NCBI RefSeq assembly: GCF_003660165.1 | Contig: NZ_CP032827.1 | Coordinates: forward strand, 62,001-126,000 | Direction of reading: 5' to 3' | Origin: Sphingomonas paeninsulae | Lineage (GTDB): Bacteria; Pseudomonadota; Alphaproteobacteria; Sphingomonadales; Sphingomonadaceae | Length of the DNA: 64,000 nt | In this document: in pieces, positions 36,781 through 60,622 of the stretch | Layout of the letters: each line of letters opens with the position of its first letter | Position numbering within the stretch: the first letter of the stretch is position 1 | Notes under the pieces: generated by a model | What the model was told of the DNA's origin: nothing | What the model saw: only the letters and a program-made list of their open reading frames with translations | The model's database searches: none | Program-made: the position numbers and the translations under genes

Positions 36781-37035
36781 ATGCAACCAAGTCCGCGTAA
36801 ATATCCTGCAATTGTAGCATGCATGAATAATGCACGGTTGCCAGAAAAACGCGAGATTGAACTCGTTGCTGCACGGATCTGGGCCGAAACCAAGAATGCA
36901 GGCGCGCCAGAATGGGCAAATCTTTTCCCAGGGTCAGCCGATCATCGGAAAATCATCCGTATTGCTTTGGCGGCACTCGGCGTCAAAGGTAAAAAAGCCG
37001 TTGTGATGATGGCTCGTGGCGGAGCAACAAACTAG
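36781..37035 (+). CDS. Small hypothetical protein
   Basis: An 84-residue soluble, helix-rich product (REIELVAARIWAETK; HRKIIRIALAALGVKGKKAVV). No domain is recognised. ATG 36781 has an AAGGA stretch about six bases before it (GAAGGAATAAAGCCATG), which supports translation. Confidence 0.5.
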   Translation: MQPSPRKYPAIVACMNNARLPEKREIELVAARIWAETKNAGAPEWANLFPGSADHRKIIRIALAALGVKGKKAVVMMARGGATN

Positions 37036-42723: not shown

Positions 42724-43224
42724 AAACGGCTGTGGCAGTTCGCAATTGTTACAACTGCGTTATTTTAGCCGGCCTGAGGCAGATCCCGCTTCTTTGCTGC
42801 GCTAAACAGCATGCCAAGCTCTGCCGGATTGGTGACGAGATTCGCCAGCGTGTAGCCGTCCAGCACATTTAAAAAGGCAGCGAGCGCCTGCCGCAATGCA
42901 CCGGTCAATCCGCAAGCGGGGGCGATGATACAATCGCCGCAATCAACCAGATCGAAGCCATCTTCGGTGTGCCGTATGACAGATCCCACATTGATCTCCT
43001 CGGCCGGTCTGGCAAGCTTAATCCCACCAAACCGACCACGCGCGCTCGCCAGGTAGCCGGCATTTACCAGATCGTTGACCACCTTCATCAGGTGGTTCTG
43101 CGAGATGTCATAAGCGCGCGATATCTCGGCGATTGAACACTGCATGTCGGGCCGGGCGCCCAGATAAATGAGCACTCGCAGGGCATAGTCGGTGTAGCGC
43201 GTGAGCCGCATGGAATCTCCTTGC
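42650..43224. repeat. Segmental duplication, copy A (DUF488 3' end plus rrf2)
   Basis: This segment has a diverged partner at 53717-54292 in the same orientation. Both contain the end of a DUF488 gene followed by a convergent Rrf2 gene, and both end at GGAATCTCCTTGC before the Rrf2 start. Copy A has the intact DUF488 gene. Confidence 0.85.
42765..43211 (-). CDS. Rrf2 family regulator, NsrR-like (copy A)
   Basis: A 148-residue Rrf2 protein with an N-terminal winged helix (MRLTRYTDYALRVLIYLGARP) and three cysteines in a C-x2-C-x5-C arrangement (Cys91, Cys94, Cys100), the usual Fe-S cluster of NsrR. It is 132/148 identical to the protein at 53833. Its upstream region lacks the NsrR-like palindromes of copy B and abuts a truncated membrane protein gene. 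It probably senses NO or redox state. Confidence 0.87.
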   Translation of the reverse strand: MRLTRYTDYALRVLIYLGARPDMQCSIAEISRAYDISQNHLMKVVNDLVNAGYLASARGRFGGIKLARPAEEINVGSVIRHTEDGFDLVDCGDCIIAPACGLTGALRQALAAFLNVLDGYTLANLVTNPAELGMLFSAAKKRDLPQAG

Positions 43225-53788: not shown

Positions 53789-54292
53789 TTGAACTGGCTT
53801 GGCGGTTCGCAAATGGCCTCAACACCGTCTTTTTACCCCGTCTGAGGCAAATCCCGATTCCTTACGGCGCTAAACAGCATCCCGAGTTCTGCCGGTTTTG
53901 TGATGAGATCCGCCAGCGTATAACCGTCCAGCACGCTTAGAAACGCGGTCAGCGCCTGCCGCAAAGCGCCGGTCAGGCCGCAAGCAGGGGCGATGATGCA
54001 CGTGCCGCAATCGACCAGGTCGAACCCATCCTCGGTGTGCCGGATGACCGCGCCCACATTGATCTCCACCGCTGGCCTGGCGAGCTTGATGCCGCCAAAG
54101 CGACCACGCGTACTGGCCAGATAGCCGACATTCACCAAATCGTTGACCACCTTCATCAGGTGGTTCTGCGAGATGTCGTAAGCGCGTGAGATCTCCGCAA
54201 TCGAGCAGAGCGCATCGGGTCGCGCGCCCAGATAGATGAGCACCCGCAGGGCATAGTCGGTGTAGCGCGTAAGCCGCATGGAATCTCCTTGC
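53717..54292. repeat. Segmental duplication, copy B (DUF488 remnant plus nsrR)
   Basis: Partner of the segment at 42650-43224, in the same orientation and nearly the same length (576 against 575 bases). The encoded Rrf2 proteins differ at 16 of 148 positions. Copy B carries only a DUF488 tail but has a palindrome-rich promoter just outside the repeat. Confidence 0.85.
53833..54279 (-). CDS. nsrR: NsrR-like Rrf2 regulator (copy B) of the NO cassette
   Basis: A 148-residue Rrf2 protein with start ATG 54279 and GGAG-type ribosome site. It has the winged helix and three Cys (C91, C94, C100) expected for a NO-sensing [Fe-S] cluster. It is divergent from the haemoglobin-AOX-Hmp operon with two NsrR-like palindromes between them, so it is probably the local repressor that is released by NO. 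It is 89% identical to copy A at 42765. Confidence 0.88.
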   Translation of the reverse strand: MRLTRYTDYALRVLIYLGARPDALCSIAEISRAYDISQNHLMKVVNDLVNVGYLASTRGRFGGIKLARPAVEINVGAVIRHTEDGFDLVDCGTCIIAPACGLTGALRQALTAFLSVLDGYTLADLITKPAELGMLFSAVRNRDLPQTG

Positions 54293-54300
54293 GACGATAT

Positions 54301-54317
54301 ATGCATTTTTCTTGCAT
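54301..54317. promoter_or_regulatory. NsrR-like operator 1
   Basis: ATGCA-N7-TGCAT is a perfect match to the core spacing of the NsrR consensus (ATGCATTTnAAATGCAT type). It lies 22 bases upstream of the nsrR start. The function is inferred from the motif and gene context. Confidence 0.5.
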
Positions 54318-54337
54318 CATTGAAAGATGCCTTATAG

Positions 54338-54354
54338 ATGCATTATCAATACAT
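54338..54354. promoter_or_regulatory. NsrR-like operator 2
   Basis: ATGCA-N7-TACAT, one mismatch from a perfect palindrome, with a further half-site AAGATGC at 54324-54330. It lies 17 bases before the truncated haemoglobin start, where a repressor would block transcription. Confidence 0.5.
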
Positions 54355-54370
54355 GAATAGGAGTCGGTCG

Positions 54371-54775
54371 ATGGACGACGGGAATGAGATCACGGAGGAA
54401 GCCCTCAAACGGCTTGTCTCCCTGTTCTACGAGCGTGTCCGCGAACACGAATCGCTGGGTCCGGTCTTCAACGATGCCATCGAAAGCTGGCCCGAACATC
54501 TCGAGAAGCTGGTCGCCTTCTGGTCGTCGGTGATGCTCACCACTGGCCGCTACAAGGGCAACCCTGTGGCCGCCCACTTCAAGCACGGGACACGTATAAC
54601 GCCCGAACTGTTTCAGCGCTGGCTGGCGCTTTGGAACAGCACCACGGCCGAGGTCATGGAGCCCTTTGCAGCCGCTGCGCTACAGGCCAAGGCCGCGCGG
54701 ATCGCAGAAAGCCTGCAACTGGCGCTCTTCTTCAAACTCGATCCAAAAACCAAACCAGACCGCGCAGCGGCCTGA
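54371..54775 (+). CDS. Group III truncated haemoglobin
   Basis: A 134-residue truncated globin from ATG 54371, with AGGAG seven bases upstream. Likely haem-pocket residues are Tyr20 (LFYERV, position B10) and His72 (FKHGTRI, proximal). RWLALWNST is the group III helix G/H pattern. Group III globins take part in NO or O2 chemistry. It opens an operon with the alternative oxidase and flavohaemoglobin genes. Confidence 0.88.
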
Positions 54776-54792: not shown

Positions 54793-55482
54793 ATGCCAAC
54801 CGCTCCCTTTGTCGACCTTAGCGTCCACTGCAAACCGCGCGGTCCGTCCGATCGCATCGCGCTGACCTTCACCAAGATACTGCGGTTCACGGCCGACACA
54901 TTCTTCGCCAAGCGCTACGGCCACCGTGCCATCGTGCTTGAGACTGTAGCGGCGGTGCCGGGCATGGTCGGCGCAACGCTGACGCATCTGCGTTGCCTGC
55001 GGCGCATGTGCGATGACAAGGGCTGGATCCGAACCTTGATGGAGGAAGCGGAGAACGAGCGGATGCACCTGATGACCTTCATCGAGGTGGCCAAGCCGAC
55101 TATGTTCGAGCGGCTCATCATTCTGGCCGTTCAGTGGGTCTTCTACCTCGCCTTCTTCACGCTCTATCTGCTCAGCGCCAAGACCGCACACCGCGTGGTC
55201 GGATATTTCGAGGAAGAGGCGGTGATCAGCTACACCCTCTATCTCGCTGAACTTGACGAGGGTCGTTCCCCCAATGGCCCGGCACCAGCAATCGCGCGGC
55301 ATTATTGGAAGCTTGGAGACGATGCGACCTTGCGCGACGTGGTGCTCCTGGTCCGCGCCGATGAGGCGCATCACCGCGATATCAATCATGGCTTTGCAAA
55401 CGAACTCGCCGGATTGGCGGTCAACCATGCGGCGGTGGCGCCCTATCCGGACCATGCCGACGACATTCGGTTGGCAGCCTGA
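54793..55482 (+). CDS. aox: Alternative oxidase (AOX)
   Basis: A 229-residue di-iron alternative oxidase with the expected ligands: Glu50 (LETVA), Glu89 and His92 (NERMHL), a Glu in FEEEAV (140-142), Glu191 and His194 (DEAHHRDI). Two hydrophobic helices ([16 protein letters not shown]) anchor it to the membrane surface. It reduces O2 to water with ubiquinol and is not blocked by NO or cyanide, unlike haem-copper oxidases. AAGGA precedes ATG 54793 by seven bases. In Vibrio fischeri, aox is controlled by NsrR, which fits this location. Confidence 0.93.
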
Positions 55483-55483
55483 C

Positions 55484-55753
55484 ATGGCCGAACCCTATCG
55501 CTCAACCCCGGTGTTCGACGAGACCACCCTCCCTGCGGCGCTGCGCGCGCGACACACGACCAAGGCCGGGGTCTGGGGCATTGTTCGCGTGCTCGAAGGC
55601 GCAGTGAAACTGACCTATCTCGAGCCGCCTTCCGAACGTCTGCTTGATCCCGACACCCCGGGACCATTGCTTCCCGAACAGCCGCATTTTGTCGAACCAA
55701 TCGGCGCGATGAAGATGCGGGTCGATTTCTACAGTGAACCGCCGGGCGGCTAA
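55484..55753 (+). CDS. DUF1971 protein (YeaR/TehB N-terminal-like)
   Basis: An 89-residue protein: YRSTPVFDETTLPAALRARHTTKAGVWGIVRVLEGAVKLTYLEP, then FVEPIGAMKMRVDFY. The family includes E. coli YeaR, whose operon is regulated by nitrate and NO through NarL and NsrR, so its presence in this NO cassette agrees. The start lies one base after the AOX stop. The beta-barrel fold suggests ligand binding; the activity is unknown. Confidence 0.85.
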   Translation: MAEPYRSTPVFDETTLPAALRARHTTKAGVWGIVRVLEGAVKLTYLEPPSERLLDPDTPGPLLPEQPHFVEPIGAMKMRVDFYSEPPGG

Positions 55754-55798: not shown

Positions 55799-57010
55799 AT
55801 GTCACAGACACTCAGCGAGCGCACGATCGCGCTCGTCAAAGCCACGGTTCCCGCACTCGAAGCCCATGGTCTCGATATTGTCCATGAGATGTACGCGCGG
55901 ATGTTCGAAAATCCCGAGATTCGCGACCTTTTTAATCAATCGCACCATGGTGACACCGGATCGCAGCCGCGCGCATTGACCGCAGCCATCCTCGCTTATG
56001 CGGCGAACATCGAGAATCTGGGCGCCCTTGCCCCGGCGGTGGAGCGGATTGCGCAAAAGCATGTCGGTCTGCAGATCCTGCCCGAACATTATCCCCATGT
56101 CGGCGAAGCGCTGCTCGGCGCCATCAAGGCCGTGCTGGGCGATGCCGCCACCGAAGAGATTCTCGCTGCCTGGGGCGAAGCCTATTGGTTCCTGGCGCAT
56201 ATCATGATTGCGCGCGAGGAGCGGCTCTACAAGGAGCACCGCACGGCGGATGGCGGCTGGGAGGGCTGGCGCACGTTCACGATCGACGCGGTGCGCGCCG
56301 AGAGCAGCGTCATCACCTCGTTCATTTTGCGCCCCACCGACGGGCGATCGGTCATTCGTCACAAACCCGGTCAATATCTGACCTTCTGGCTCGAGATACC
56401 CGGCCATCCTCCAGTCAAACGCAATTATAGCGTTTCACAAGCCGCCAATGGCGAGACCTATCGTATCTCGGTAAAACGCGAGCCCCTCGGCCTCGCCTCG
56501 GGCTGGCTCCACGACCAGGCAAAGCCCGGCACCGTGCTCAAGGTGGCCGCGCCCGCAGGCGAGTTCTTCCTGACAGACAATCCCGAACGCCCGGTCGTGC
56601 TGATGTCCGGCGGGGTCGGCCTGACCCCGATGGTCGCAATGCTCGAAGCCGTAGCGCAGCAGCATCCTGACCTTCCCGTCCAATATCTTCATGGAACACT
56701 GGATGGCTCGACCCACGCACTTTCCAATGACGTCCACGCACTCGCGACCGGTCGCCCGAACATCCGCGTCACGAACTTCTACCAGACACCAAGGACACAA
56801 GACGTTGCGGGCCGGGACTATGACCATAATGGGCTGATCGACGAGCAGTGGCTCACGACCCATACGCCGATCGAAGAAGCAGACTATTACCTATGCGGCC
56901 CGCGACCATTCCTGCGCGCGTTTGTCGCCACCTTGTCGCTCGCTGGCGTCGCATCTGACAGGATTCATTATGAGTTTTTCGGCCCTGCCGACGAACTCCT
57001 CGCCGCCTGA
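55799..57010 (+). CDS. hmp: Flavohaemoglobin NO dioxygenase
   Basis: A 403-residue flavohaemoglobin. The globin domain has Tyr32, Gln56 and proximal His88 (IAQKHVGLQ). The reductase domain shows RNYSVSQ (FAD), MSGGVGLTPMV (NAD) and YLCGPRPFL. It turns NO plus O2 into nitrate with NAD(P)H. AGGAG lies six bases before ATG 55799. It is placed with two other NO-related genes and qNor. Confidence 0.94.
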   Translation: MSQTLSERTIALVKATVPALEAHGLDIVHEMYARMFENPEIRDLFNQSHHGDTGSQPRALTAAILAYAANIENLGALAPAVERIAQKHVGLQILPEHYPHVGEALLGAIKAVLGDAATEEILAAWGEAYWFLAHIMIAREERLYKEHRTADGGWEGWRTFTIDAVRAESSVITSFILRPTDGRSVIRHKPGQYLTFWLEIPGHPPVKRNYSVSQAANGETYRISVKREPLGLASGWLHDQAKPGTVLKVAAPAGEFFLTDNPERPVVLMSGGVGLTPMVAMLEAVAQQHPDLPVQYLHGTLDGSTHALSNDVHALATGRPNIRVTNFYQTPRTQDVAGRDYDHNGLIDEQWLTTHTPIEEADYYLCGPRPFLRAFVATLSLAGVASDRIHYEFFGPADELLAA

Positions 57011-57023
57011 AGGGACGACCGAC

Positions 57024-57497
57024 ATGGATGACCTCACCATTGCGCGCATGATCCATATCCTGGCCATCGTATGCTGGATCGGCGGGGTTGCGTTTGTAAC
57101 CACCGTGGTCATCCCGTCGGTCAAAGCCTTGCCATCATCCGAGAGGCTGGCTGCCTTCCACCGCATCGAAAGCCGCTTTGCCCCGCAGGCGCGCATCTGG
57201 ATTCTATTCACTGGCGCAAGCGGCCTGTGGATGATCCAGCGCGGAGGAATGTGGGATCGCTTTCGTGATCTGCATTTCTGGTGGATGCACGCCATGCTAT
57301 GCGTCTGGTCGATCTTCTTTTCGGTGCTGTTTATCGTTGAACCGCTAATCTTGCGTCGCCGGTTCGAGTTTTGGGCGGTAAGATCGCCGGATGGAGCGTT
57401 CAGGCTGCTCCACCGCGCGCATATCCTTCTACTTGGTCTCAGCCTAATTACCGTAATCGGTGCGGTTGCCGGAAGCCGCGGGTTTTCGCCATTTTAG
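57024..57497 (+). CDS. Four-helix integral membrane protein of the NO cassette
   Basis: A 157-residue protein with four hydrophobic segments (ARMIHILAIVCWIGGVAFVTTVVIP; RIWILFTGASGLWM; WWMHAMLCVWSIFFSVLFIVEP; LLHRAHILLLGLSLITVIG). Several histidines (HILAIVCW, WMHAM, HRAH) lie near the membrane and could bind haem or copper. Similar COG5615/CopD-like proteins sit beside NO genes elsewhere; the activity is unknown. Confidence 0.65.
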   Translation: MDDLTIARMIHILAIVCWIGGVAFVTTVVIPSVKALPSSERLAAFHRIESRFAPQARIWILFTGASGLWMIQRGGMWDRFRDLHFWWMHAMLCVWSIFFSVLFIVEPLILRRRFEFWAVRSPDGAFRLLHRAHILLLGLSLITVIGAVAGSRGFSPF

Positions 57498-57523: not shown

Positions 57524-57850
57524 GTGCCTGATACGGAAAACAGATCGATAGATCCCGAGCGCATCGACGCGGTCGCGCACGCCGTCCATGTGCTTTGCCA
57601 TGGACGATCCGATGTCTCGCTAGCGGCGCATGTGACGGCGACGGTTGCCCAGCATCTAGCAGACGCCACGCCGATGACGGATTCGAGCGATGCCGATTTT
57701 TTGGCGGAGCGCGCTGCGCTGGAAGCGGCCGTAACGAAGAGGGTGGAGCAGCTACAAGAGAGCCAGGCGGAGTCGGACGCCGTCGACGAGGCATCGCGGG
57801 AATCTTTTCCTGCCAGCGACTCACCCGCGTGGGTTTCACGCCGGCATTAA
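57524..57850 (+). CDS. Hypothetical protein with C-terminal SFPASD motif
   Basis: A 108-residue soluble protein, GTG start. It is acidic and ends DEASRESFPASDSPAW, a tail motif (E.SFPASDPP..) that I recall on many small proteobacterial proteins of unknown role. The middle is a coiled-coil-like ERAALEAAVTKRVEQLQESQ. It sits between the membrane protein and cupin genes of the NO cassette. Confidence 0.55.
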   Translation: MPDTENRSIDPERIDAVAHAVHVLCHGRSDVSLAAHVTATVAQHLADATPMTDSSDADFLAERAALEAAVTKRVEQLQESQAESDAVDEASRESFPASDSPAWVSRRH

Positions 57851-58300: not shown

Positions 58301-60622
58301 ATGGACGAAGCCGCCCAACCCAAATGTGATCCAGAAATCAGTCCAATATCGAAATGGTGGCTGCGATCAGTCCTGATGGTGATGACCCTTGGCTTTGCGG
58401 GGCTTCTGGCGATCACCATGCTCTCTTATCGAAACGCGCCGCCCATCCCCGATACTATTATAGACGCCAGTGGAGAGACCCTGTTCACAGGCGATCAGAT
58501 CCGCTCGGGACAGGCCATATTTCTGCGCTATGGCTTGATGGACAATGGCACGGTCTGGGGGCATGGGGCTTATCTTGGCCCTGATTTTTCGGCCGAAACG
58601 CTGCATCAGATTGGTGAGAGCGTAGCCACGTCCCTGGCACAGCAACAGTTCGCCAAGTCTTTGACTGCTCTTAACCCACTCGAGACAGGGTCGATCCGCG
58701 GTCAGGTCGCCGTCACGCTGAAAACCAATCGATTCGATCCGGCGAGCAACACCCTGAACCTGACTGCGCCGGAGGCCGTCGCTTATCGCGCACAGACAGC
58801 CCGCTGGACAGCCTATTTCATCAACCCAGCACGCAACGGCGGTCTTGCGCCCAAGCTCATCACCAATTCGGCAGAATTGCACGACTTGACTGCCTTTTTT
58901 TGCTGGACTGCCTGGGCGTCGGTCGCCGATCGGCCTGGGGCGGATTATTCCTACACCAACAATTTTCCCTATGACCCCGGCGTTGGCAATGTCGCTCCGG
59001 CCGGTGCGCTGCTGTGGAGCGCGCTCAGCCTGATCGTACTGCTTGGCGGTATAGCGGCCGTCCTGCTCGCCTTTGGTAAATTCGACTATCTGGGCTGGAT
59101 TACGCGGGGCCATAGCGCCACGCCGCAGGTGATCCCGGGGCAGGCAAGCCCCGGCCAGCGCGCCCTCGTCAAATTCTTCGTTGTCGTCTCCTTGCTGTTT
59201 CTCATGCAGACGCTCGTAGGTGGTGCGGTTGCGCACTATCGCGCCGATCCGGGAAGTTTCTACGGCTTCCAGCTCGAGACTATATTTCCGAGCAACCTGA
59301 TGCGCATCTGGCACTTGCAGACCGCGATCTTCTGGATCGCGACGGCCTATGTGGCAGCCGCGCTGTTTCTCGGCCGCTCGCTCCGGACCGATGAGCCCCG
59401 CTGGCTGCCCGCAGCCATTCATCTTCTGTTCGCGGCTTTCGCTGTCGTCATCGGTGCCAGTCTCCTTGGCGAATGGGCGGGCATCTCCGGGTGGCTTGGC
59501 GACTGGTGGTTCCTGTTCGGCAACCAGGGCTGGGAATATCTCGAGATCGGCCGCTTCTGGCAGTATCTGCTCGTTGTGGGATTGCTAGGGTGGTTCGCCC
59601 TGCTCTGGTGGATTGCGCGGCCCAGCCAGGTCACCAACGTCCATGCAAGGCCGATCGTCCGAATGTTTCTGTTAGGCGCGCTGGCCATTCCCGTCTTCTA
59701 CGTTCCCGCCCTCTTTTTTGGCGCCAAGACCAACTTTACAGTGGTCGACACCTGGCGCTTCTGGATCATCCATCTGTGGGTTGAGGGATTTTTCGAATTC
59801 TTCGCAACCACCGTGGTCGCGCTGATGTTGTTCCAGCTAGGCCTCACGGGGCGGAATACCGCGCTGCGCGTCATTTATCTCGACGCGATCCTCTATTTCC
59901 TCGGCGGCCTGATGGGGACTGGCCATCACTGGTACTTCTCAGGCCAGACCCAGATCAATATGGCGGCTTCGGCGCTTTTTTCGGCACTTGAAGTCGTGCC
60001 CCTCACATTGCTGACACTCGACGCATGGGATTTTGTCCGCACGACACGCGGAGAAACCGGCCAAAATGGGGGAGCTCCGGCGCTGACCCACAAGTGGACC
60101 TTTTATTTCCTCATGGCGGTGGGATTCTGGAATTTCCTCGGCGCCGGTGTTTTCGGATTTATGATCAATCTGCCGATCGTGAGCTATTATGAGGTTGGAA
60201 CGATCCTGACGCCCAATCACGGCCACGCCGCCATGATGGGCGTCTTCGGGATGCTCGCGCTAGCCCTGATGGTGTTTGTGCTGCGCCAGACGACTGACAT
60301 GGCGCGCTGGTCAGGCATCGAAAAATATATCCGCATCGGTTTCTGGGGGACCAACATCGGGCTCGCGTCAATGGTGGTGCTCAGCTTGTTTCCTTCTGGA
60401 GTTCTGCAGGTCTGGGATGTGGTGCAGCATGGCTATTGGCACGCACGCAGCATCGAATATACCGGCACTGCGGTCGCACGGCGGCTCGAATGGATGCGGC
60501 TACCCGGCGATTTGATTTTCATCATCTTTGGTGCCGTCCCGCTCAGCATAGCCGCGTTAAAAGCATATTGGGGTGTTCTCTCCCATGATTATGATGCTCA
60601 GGAAAGTTACATGAAGAGTTAG
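58301..60622 (+). CDS. norB: Quinol-dependent nitric oxide reductase (qNor)
   Basis: A 773-residue qNor with an N-terminal extension (about 220 residues, including a periplasmic domain) fused to a 12-helix catalytic domain. Haem and metal ligands are in WRFWIIHLWVEGFFEFFATT (a His and Glu), GHHWYFSG and NHGHAAMMGVFGM. It takes electrons from ubiquinol and reduces NO to N2O. It closes the NO cassette, so the cell can remove NO with Hmp when O2 is present and with qNor when O2 is scarce. Confidence 0.94.
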   Translation: MDEAAQPKCDPEISPISKWWLRSVLMVMTLGFAGLLAITMLSYRNAPPIPDTIIDASGETLFTGDQIRSGQAIFLRYGLMDNGTVWGHGAYLGPDFSAETLHQIGESVATSLAQQQFAKSLTALNPLETGSIRGQVAVTLKTNRFDPASNTLNLTAPEAVAYRAQTARWTAYFINPARNGGLAPKLITNSAELHDLTAFFCWTAWASVADRPGADYSYTNNFPYDPGVGNVAPAGALLWSALSLIVLLGGIAAVLLAFGKFDYLGWITRGHSATPQVIPGQASPGQRALVKFFVVVSLLFLMQTLVGGAVAHYRADPGSFYGFQLETIFPSNLMRIWHLQTAIFWIATAYVAAALFLGRSLRTDEPRWLPAAIHLLFAAFAVVIGASLLGEWAGISGWLGDWWFLFGNQGWEYLEIGRFWQYLLVVGLLGWFALLWWIARPSQVTNVHARPIVRMFLLGALAIPVFYVPALFFGAKTNFTVVDTWRFWIIHLWVEGFFEFFATTVVALMLFQLGLTGRNTALRVIYLDAILYFLGGLMGTGHHWYFSGQTQINMAASALFSALEVVPLTLLTLDAWDFVRTTRGETGQNGGAPALTHKWTFYFLMAVGFWNFLGAGVFGFMINLPIVSYYEVGTILTPNHGHAAMMGVFGMLALALMVFVLRQTTDMARWSGIEKYIRIGFWGTNIGLASMVVLSLFPSGVLQVWDVVQHGYWHARSIEYTGTAVARRLEWMRLPGDLIFIIFGAVPLSIAALKAYWGVLSHDYDAQESYMKS

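Follow-up and report, generated by a model that had tools for sequence, protein, structure and literature searches.

How an NsrR-like regulator gene and an operon for the detoxification of nitric oxide (NO) might be controlled from one short, shared upstream region is the question raised by a 64,000-nucleotide (nt) stretch of the Sphingomonas paeninsulae genome (contig NZ_CP032827.1, positions 62,001 to 126,000 of the forward strand; hereafter, the window). A gap of 91 bp separates the start codon of nsrR copy B (54279, minus strand) from that of a gene for a group III truncated hemoglobin (trHb3; 54371, plus strand), and the trHb3 gene begins a series that continues with alternative oxidase (AOX), a DUF1971 protein, Hmp and, further on, the NO reductase qNorB. 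An initial annotation had claimed that two palindromes with the spacing of the NsrR consensus lie within this gap. Both are present, as box 1 and box 2, 37 bp apart (coordinates in the table), and they fit the NsrR type, with an NsrR-like Rrf2 gene on one side and genes of NO detoxification on the other. We consider it quite likely that an NsrR-type repressor, whose binding is predicted, controls two overlapping divergent promoters in this gap.

Both boxes are rare in the 3.99-Mb genome. Only box 1 and box 2 match the A/T-flanked pattern WWNATGYAWN5WTRCATNWW exactly, and only box 2 matches ATGYATN5ATRCAT exactly; when up to one mismatch is allowed, the latter pattern occurs at nine places, three of which fall within the 54 bp from 54301 to 54354. 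By count alone, the looser palindrome pattern of the initial annotation has no significance, since with one mismatch it matches four times in the window (3.1 expected) and 36 of 100 shuffled sequences also reach four. The significance of the boxes comes instead from their clustering, from their scores on a longer matrix, and from their conservation. This clade matrix, symmetrised over 25 positions, draws on 109 distinct sites at other loci, excluding the window and the loci L023, L024 and L103. Box 2 scores 33.2 bits and box 1 scores 28.8 bits; training sites range from a lowest score of 16.1 up to 34.4 bits (every tenth site printed). The next scores in the window are 12.7 bits, for a third match that overlaps box 2, and 7.4 bits, for the next non-overlapping place, and ten order-1 Markov sequences as long as the window do not exceed 10.8 bits. 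The E. coli NsrR consensus, an 11-1-11 inverted repeat of AAxATGCATTT with 20 defined positions, is matched at 15 of 20 by box 1 and at 14 of 20 by box 2, and 20 Markov sequences of 64 kb peak at 13-15, so that this consensus by itself does not set the boxes apart from random sequence. By clustering, clade-matrix score and conservation, the pair is supported, as far as sequence can tell, as predicted NsrR-type operators rather than a product of chance.

A genome-wide motif scan for further sites, as the initial annotation had suggested, yielded none that is convincing: the six one-mismatch places outside the region of the boxes score -18.9 to 7.4 bits on the clade matrix, and two extra places returned by the A/T-flanked search score 4.8 and <0 bits. 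A candidate at 36819 was rejected, as it lies inside an 84-codon reading frame that starts at 36781 and its 7.4 bits are within the range of random sequence. Weaker sites, matching ATGYATN5ATRCAT with two mismatches, are possible on the third contig, beyond those listed. No box upstream of norB itself appears among the 15 best places of the window on the clade matrix. The initial annotation had also pointed to another half-site, AAGATGC, at 54324. The sequence is there, as the left arm of the third match, which is offset from box 2 by 11 bp, but its role is doubtful. Over 54324-54346 this match agrees with the E. coli consensus at 16 of 20 positions, the best in the window (Markov maxima 13-15); its score on the clade matrix is under that of the lowest training site, and it is absent from the aligned sequences of L023 and L024, the two closest relatives (alignment judged by eye). 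At most, and doubtfully, it might provide an alternative register specific to the window sequence.

Conservation in close relatives had been set beforehand as the test on which the proposal could fail, and the boxes are kept both in close relatives and beyond. The sample consists of the best 80 of 394 nsrR homologue loci from a scan of a genome collection; a divergent NO gene was counted within 700 bp, a box was a match of at least 14 bits, and two boxes had to lie within 400 bp. A divergent NO gene is present at 77 of the 80 loci. At least one box accompanies it at 77 of 77 (two boxes at 71, one only at 6), a count that is partly circular because these same loci served to train the matrix; no such circularity affects the three loci without a divergent NO gene, none of which has a box. 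Counting overlapping matches only once leaves these figures unchanged. When the plain consensus, with up to two mismatches, is searched for in 74 distinct 200-bp upstream regions, 64 contain at least two boxes, 6 contain one, and 4 contain none; among 1,480 shuffled regions, 16 contain one box and 1 contains two.

The spacing of the pair is also narrowly conserved. Within 200 bp upstream of nsrR at 84 loci (the 80, the window's own locus L001, and three from a second set), two boxes 35-39 bp apart are found at 75, window included, with a distance of 37 bp at 56, 36 at 12, 38 at 5, and 35 and 39 at one each. The other nine have no such pair within 200 bp; at one of them, L097, a 37-bp pair lies beyond that limit. 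Clustering at 80% identity leaves 47 loci, of which 33 have the 37-bp distance, and clustering at 70% identity leaves 35, of which 24 do. Pairs are present in sphingomonads, Brevundimonas, Phenylobacterium, Paracoccus, Ancylobacter, Labrys and Camelimonas, and a 37-bp pair is found in P. denitrificans DSM 413 (L091); Stella has one box only. Information content is 0.07-0.58 bits at each of the 12 central positions that separate the boxes and rises to as much as 2.0 bits within the boxes.

The two boxes differ in ways that suggest how they are built into the promoters. On the nsrR strand, the sixth base is A in box 1 (ATGCAA) in 59 of 60 clustered loci and T in box 2 in 54 of 60. The ATGCAA of box 1 reads TTGCAT on the operon strand, a plausible -35 element of the operon promoter. 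Likewise, TAT (nsrR strand) stands next to box 2 in 63 of the 65 distinct sequences and next to box 1 in 15 of 53; on the operon strand, this places ATA and one further base ahead of box 2, and a preceding T in the window creates TATAG, plausibly the -10 element. In 11 of 13 printed loci, a GGAG, the presumed ribosome-binding site (RBS), comes within a few bases after box 2 on the operon strand; therefore, the operon start is expected in or just before box 2. On the nsrR strand, box 1 fills a 17-nt gap with loosely kept TTGAAA-like and TATTAT-like hexamers on either side. The claim that the boxes flank the start points of nsrR and the operon holds only in part: box 2 overlaps the presumed operon start, and box 1 falls in the space separating the presumed -35 element of nsrR from its -10 element. 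Only A or T occurs at positions -4 to -2 and +2 to +4 in 63 and 65 of 65 sequences for box 2 and in 52 and 53 of 53 for box 1, and the sequence between the boxes is 47% A+T. As described for the structure of Streptomyces coelicolor NsrR (ScNsrR) with the hmpA1 operator, Arg60 of the wing reaches into the minor groove near these flank positions, where the operator ends (PMC9338935), and this arginine is shared by at least 95% of 82 aligned NsrR-like proteins. The A/T flanks would fit such wing contacts, and the specific letters would fit promoter elements.

We propose that the repressor is an NsrR-type Fe-S protein, supplied by copy B and probably, in trans, by copy A. Without NO, dimers of the holo-repressor would occupy both boxes. 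Box 1 would then lie within the spacer of the nsrR promoter and cover the presumed -35 element of the operon, and box 2 would abut the presumed -10 element of the operon and cover its presumed start point, so that RNA polymerase would be blocked from the operon at both ends and from nsrR at box 1. NO would damage the cluster and the repressor would leave, allowing expression of trHb3, AOX, Hmp and the following genes, which we infer to form a single operon transcript; induction by NO is assumed here by analogy with reports on relatives. The near-constant spacing of 37 bp would arise because each box is anchored at one of the two ends of a single promoter, the distance between the -35 and -10 elements fixing the distance between the boxes. 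A more tentative extension, which we hold to be possible rather than probable, is that the clade relies on a composite operator-promoter in which each box is fused to one polymerase contact of a single operon promoter and the spacing is thereby locked at 37 bp, that box 1 trades symmetry (ATGCAA for ATGCAT) for the TTG of the -35 element, and that in this genome the box-less copy A supplies repressor outside the autoregulatory loop and sets the floor of the NO response.

Copy B belongs to the Rrf2 family (PF02082, 112.7 bits, cut-off 30; TIGR00738 above its cut-off), and its best-scoring specific NCBIfam model is that of NsrR, NF008240. It is called NsrR-like because this score is below the cut-off of the model; it is expected to work like NsrR, with a predicted reaction of NO at an Fe-S cluster. 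Its best relatives in the PDB are the ScNsrR structures 5n07 and 7b0c. Residues C91, C94, C100 and D8 are each shared by 95% or more of the 82 aligned proteins, and the NsrR-like clade has a shortened cysteine loop, C-X2-C-X5-C, at residues 91-100. A mechanical list of open reading frames places the start of nsrR at 54306 and that of the globin at 54338, both inside boxes; the starts used here are those with an RBS, and that of nsrR is also chosen by its N terminus, MRLTRYTDY, which is like those of ScNsrR and relatives.

Copy A lies 10.6 kb from copy B, 22 bp past the stop codon of a same-strand DUF347 gene. The initial annotation had stated that it lacks the boxes, and this is borne out: over the 300 bp preceding it, agreement with the E. 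coli consensus peaks at 12 of 20. The two copies differ at 16 residues, none of which is among residues 34-48, which we take for the recognition helix by alignment position; copy A therefore probably reads the same boxes. Copy A has a full-length DUF488 gene and a DUF6306 gene as neighbours, and a truncated DUF488 remnant downstream of copy B (from ~53664) matches the DUF488 gene beside nsrR in L023 (Sphingobium psychrophilum). The idea that copy A is a recent duplicate of copy B finds no support: it is copy B, not copy A, whose sequence is continuous with the L023 locus, over 787 nt at 89.2% identity, and copy A is 78.8% identical over 926 nt. The protein tree leaves the branching order of copy A, copy B and L023 unresolved.

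Several observations, besides the circularity mentioned above, weigh against repression of overlapping promoters by an NsrR-type protein. A sigma-70 consensus scan reported neither proposed promoter, its sole match being on the minus strand at 54371-54342. TTGCAT together with TATAGA gives the operon promoter a 15-nt spacer, which is short for sigma-70; other hexamers would give 16-17 nt, and the hexamer assignment is ambiguous. On the NCBIfam NsrR model, copies B and A score 136.2 and 137.5 bits, below the cut-off of 182, and the RirA model NF008886 follows closely with 123 and 126.7 bits, below its own cut-off of 193. Six loci with the divergent operon carry a single box. Finally, in the second set of 24 loci only 5 (61-90% protein identity) have a 36-38-bp pair, and the remaining 19, all <60% identical, have none, although at one of these, L112, two boxes lie 28 bp from each other; the two-box layout is, on this sampling of sequences, limited to close NsrR homologues.

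The six single-box loci, each with a box above 14 bits, could indicate that one box is the true operator and the other a relic or accessory, at a distance that reflects shared descent rather than function, and a single NsrR site is reported to suffice in V. vulnificus (PMC8175989). Since 71 of 77 loci retain two boxes while the 12 central bases between them drifted, and the spacing persists after clustering at 70% identity, we regard this as unlikely. The narrow range of spacings (36-38 bp in 73 of 75 loci) might be fixed by contact between two repressor dimers, through cooperative binding or a loop, instead of by promoter geometry. However, 37 bp is about 3.5 helical turns, which would place the dimers on opposite faces of the DNA, and both the asymmetric half-site of box 1, reading the TTG of a -35 element on the operon strand, and the preference of TAT for box 2 are better explained by promoter elements; dimer contact is kept here as a minor possibility.

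The closeness of the RirA and NsrR scores, both below cut-off, could also mean that the regulator is another Rrf2 type, RirA- or IscR-like, that responds to iron or Fe-S status, with NO acting only indirectly. This is quite unlikely, given the divergent NO genes in 77 of 80 neighbourhoods, ScNsrR as the best PDB relative, and the induction by NO of the operon of a relative. A chance origin of the palindromes, as AT-rich stretches of a short gap between genes, would agree with the loose one-mismatch pattern being no commoner in the window than in shuffled sequence, but is scarcely credible against the genome-wide rarity, the matrix scores, and a conservation and spacing that hold across loci and span several families of Alphaproteobacteria.

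Features of the divergent nsrR-NO region and of the second nsrR copy (window positions)
Feature	Position	Strand	Description
Box 1	54301-54317	.	ATGCATTTTTCTTGCAT; nsrR strand ATGCAAGAAAAATGCAT; predicted NsrR-type operator, nsrR-proximal
Box 2	54338-54354	.	ATGCATTATCAATACAT; predicted NsrR-type operator, operon-proximal
Third candidate site	54327-54343	.	ATGCCTTATAGATGCAT; left arm is the AAGATGC half-site at 54324; overlaps box 2; doubtful
Presumed operon promoter	54312-54338	+	-35 TTGCAT 54312-54317 in box 1; -10 region TATAG(A) 54333-54338 touching box 2; hexamers putative
Presumed nsrR promoter	54296-54324	-	-35 TTCAAT 54324-54319; 17-nt spacer with box 1; -10 TATATC 54301-54296; suggested by sequence and alignment
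nsrR copy B	53836-54279	-	Rrf2 regulator; C-X2-C-X5-C and Asp8; RBS AAGGAG
nsrR copy A	42768-43211	-	89% identical to copy B; behind DUF347 gene; no boxes upstream
Group III truncated hemoglobin	54371-54772	+	First gene of operon; RBS AGGAG 54359-54363; 68% identical to gene so annotated in NZ_AP018666.1
AOX	54793-55479	+	PF01786, 5.6e-81
DUF1971 protein	55484-55750	+	PF09313
Flavohemoglobin Hmp	55799-57007	+	NF009805, 547.7 bits, cut-off 432
Two operon genes	57018-57494 and 57524-57847		No Pfam match
qNor-type NO reductase NorB	58301-60619	+	PF22085 and PF00115

The truncated hemoglobin of the window has no Pfam or NCBIfam match. A plasmid gene of CP021182.1 (L127, 3507-3944), annotated as "preprotein translocase subunit TatC", is 67% identical to it and is the same gene as the one called group III truncated hemoglobin in NZ_AP018666.1, both being 67-68% identical to the window globin. 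AOX lies within the divergent operon at 15 of the 80 related loci, which places this oxidase in a divergent NO operon; it was not found at the nsrR locus of L024, a close relative. A homologue of the gene at 57018-57494 occurs at 24 of the 80 loci, always with Hmp on the same strand.

Repression by NsrR is itself a known mechanism; what seems to be an undescribed variant of it is the clade-wide layout of two boxes at a near-fixed distance, together with the trade-off in the half-site of box 1. No report of fixed twin NsrR boxes was found in the open-access literature, searched mostly at the level of titles and abstracts; the accessible portions of PMC12774639 and PMC4344238 contain no operator motif, and those of PMC3820574 and PMC4123721 no further operator data. 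A 2005 study of NO regulons reported no NsrR in alphaproteobacterial genomes except that of R. capsulatus E1F1 (PMC1274295), and the boxes described here provide a specific operator model for alphaproteobacterial NsrR-like regulators.

A close parallel that fits the proposed repression comes from another sphingomonad, Sphingopyxis granuli TFA, in which the operon SGRAN_3394-3396, divergent from nsrR, is reported as the most NO-induced, rising 120-229-fold with anoxia or DETA-NO, and nsrR itself rises 5-7-fold (PMC6472365); aox is likewise described as strongly induced. Unlike in the window, the first gene, SGRAN_3394, is named TatC, and the operon, ill-defined by its authors, was interpreted as protein-traffic genes (PMC7713065); the available portions of these two reports describe no NsrR boxes. 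In records titled Sphingopyxis, the globin homologue is divergent from nsrR at 11 of 11 loci. From the annotation parallels, we infer that SGRAN_3394 is this globin, and the same TatC misannotation probably also hides the NO-induced operon of strain TFA. This would give the most NO-induced operon of that strain a likely identity, beginning with a globin annotated as TatC. In P. denitrificans, an hmp-lacZ fusion is reported to respond about twofold to NO, from 391 to 824 units (PMC5588039).

Among better characterized systems, the [4Fe-4S] NsrR of S. coelicolor and its hmpA1 operator resemble copy B in the Rrf2 fold, Asp8, three cysteines and wing Arg60 (PMC9338935; PDB 5n07, 7b0c), although the cysteines of ScNsrR are spaced C-X5-C-X5-C versus C-X2-C-X5-C in copy B. 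The norB-nirK upstream region of Neisseria similarly has divergent NO genes and two candidate NsrR sites, but nsrR is not one of the two divergent genes (PMC1274295). In Vibrio fischeri, a Gammaproteobacterium, aox belongs to the NsrR regulon (PMC1274295) and AOX is reported to be NO-inducible, whereas the AOX gene of the window sits inside the globin operon. The geometry proposed for box 2 is like that of the V. vulnificus nsrR-hmpA region, whose divergent promoters overlap and in which NsrR protects -2 to +18 of hmpA and represses both genes from a site at the hmpA start (PMC8175989). However, that region has one NsrR site together with Lrp and CRP input, whereas the window has two sites at a near-fixed distance.
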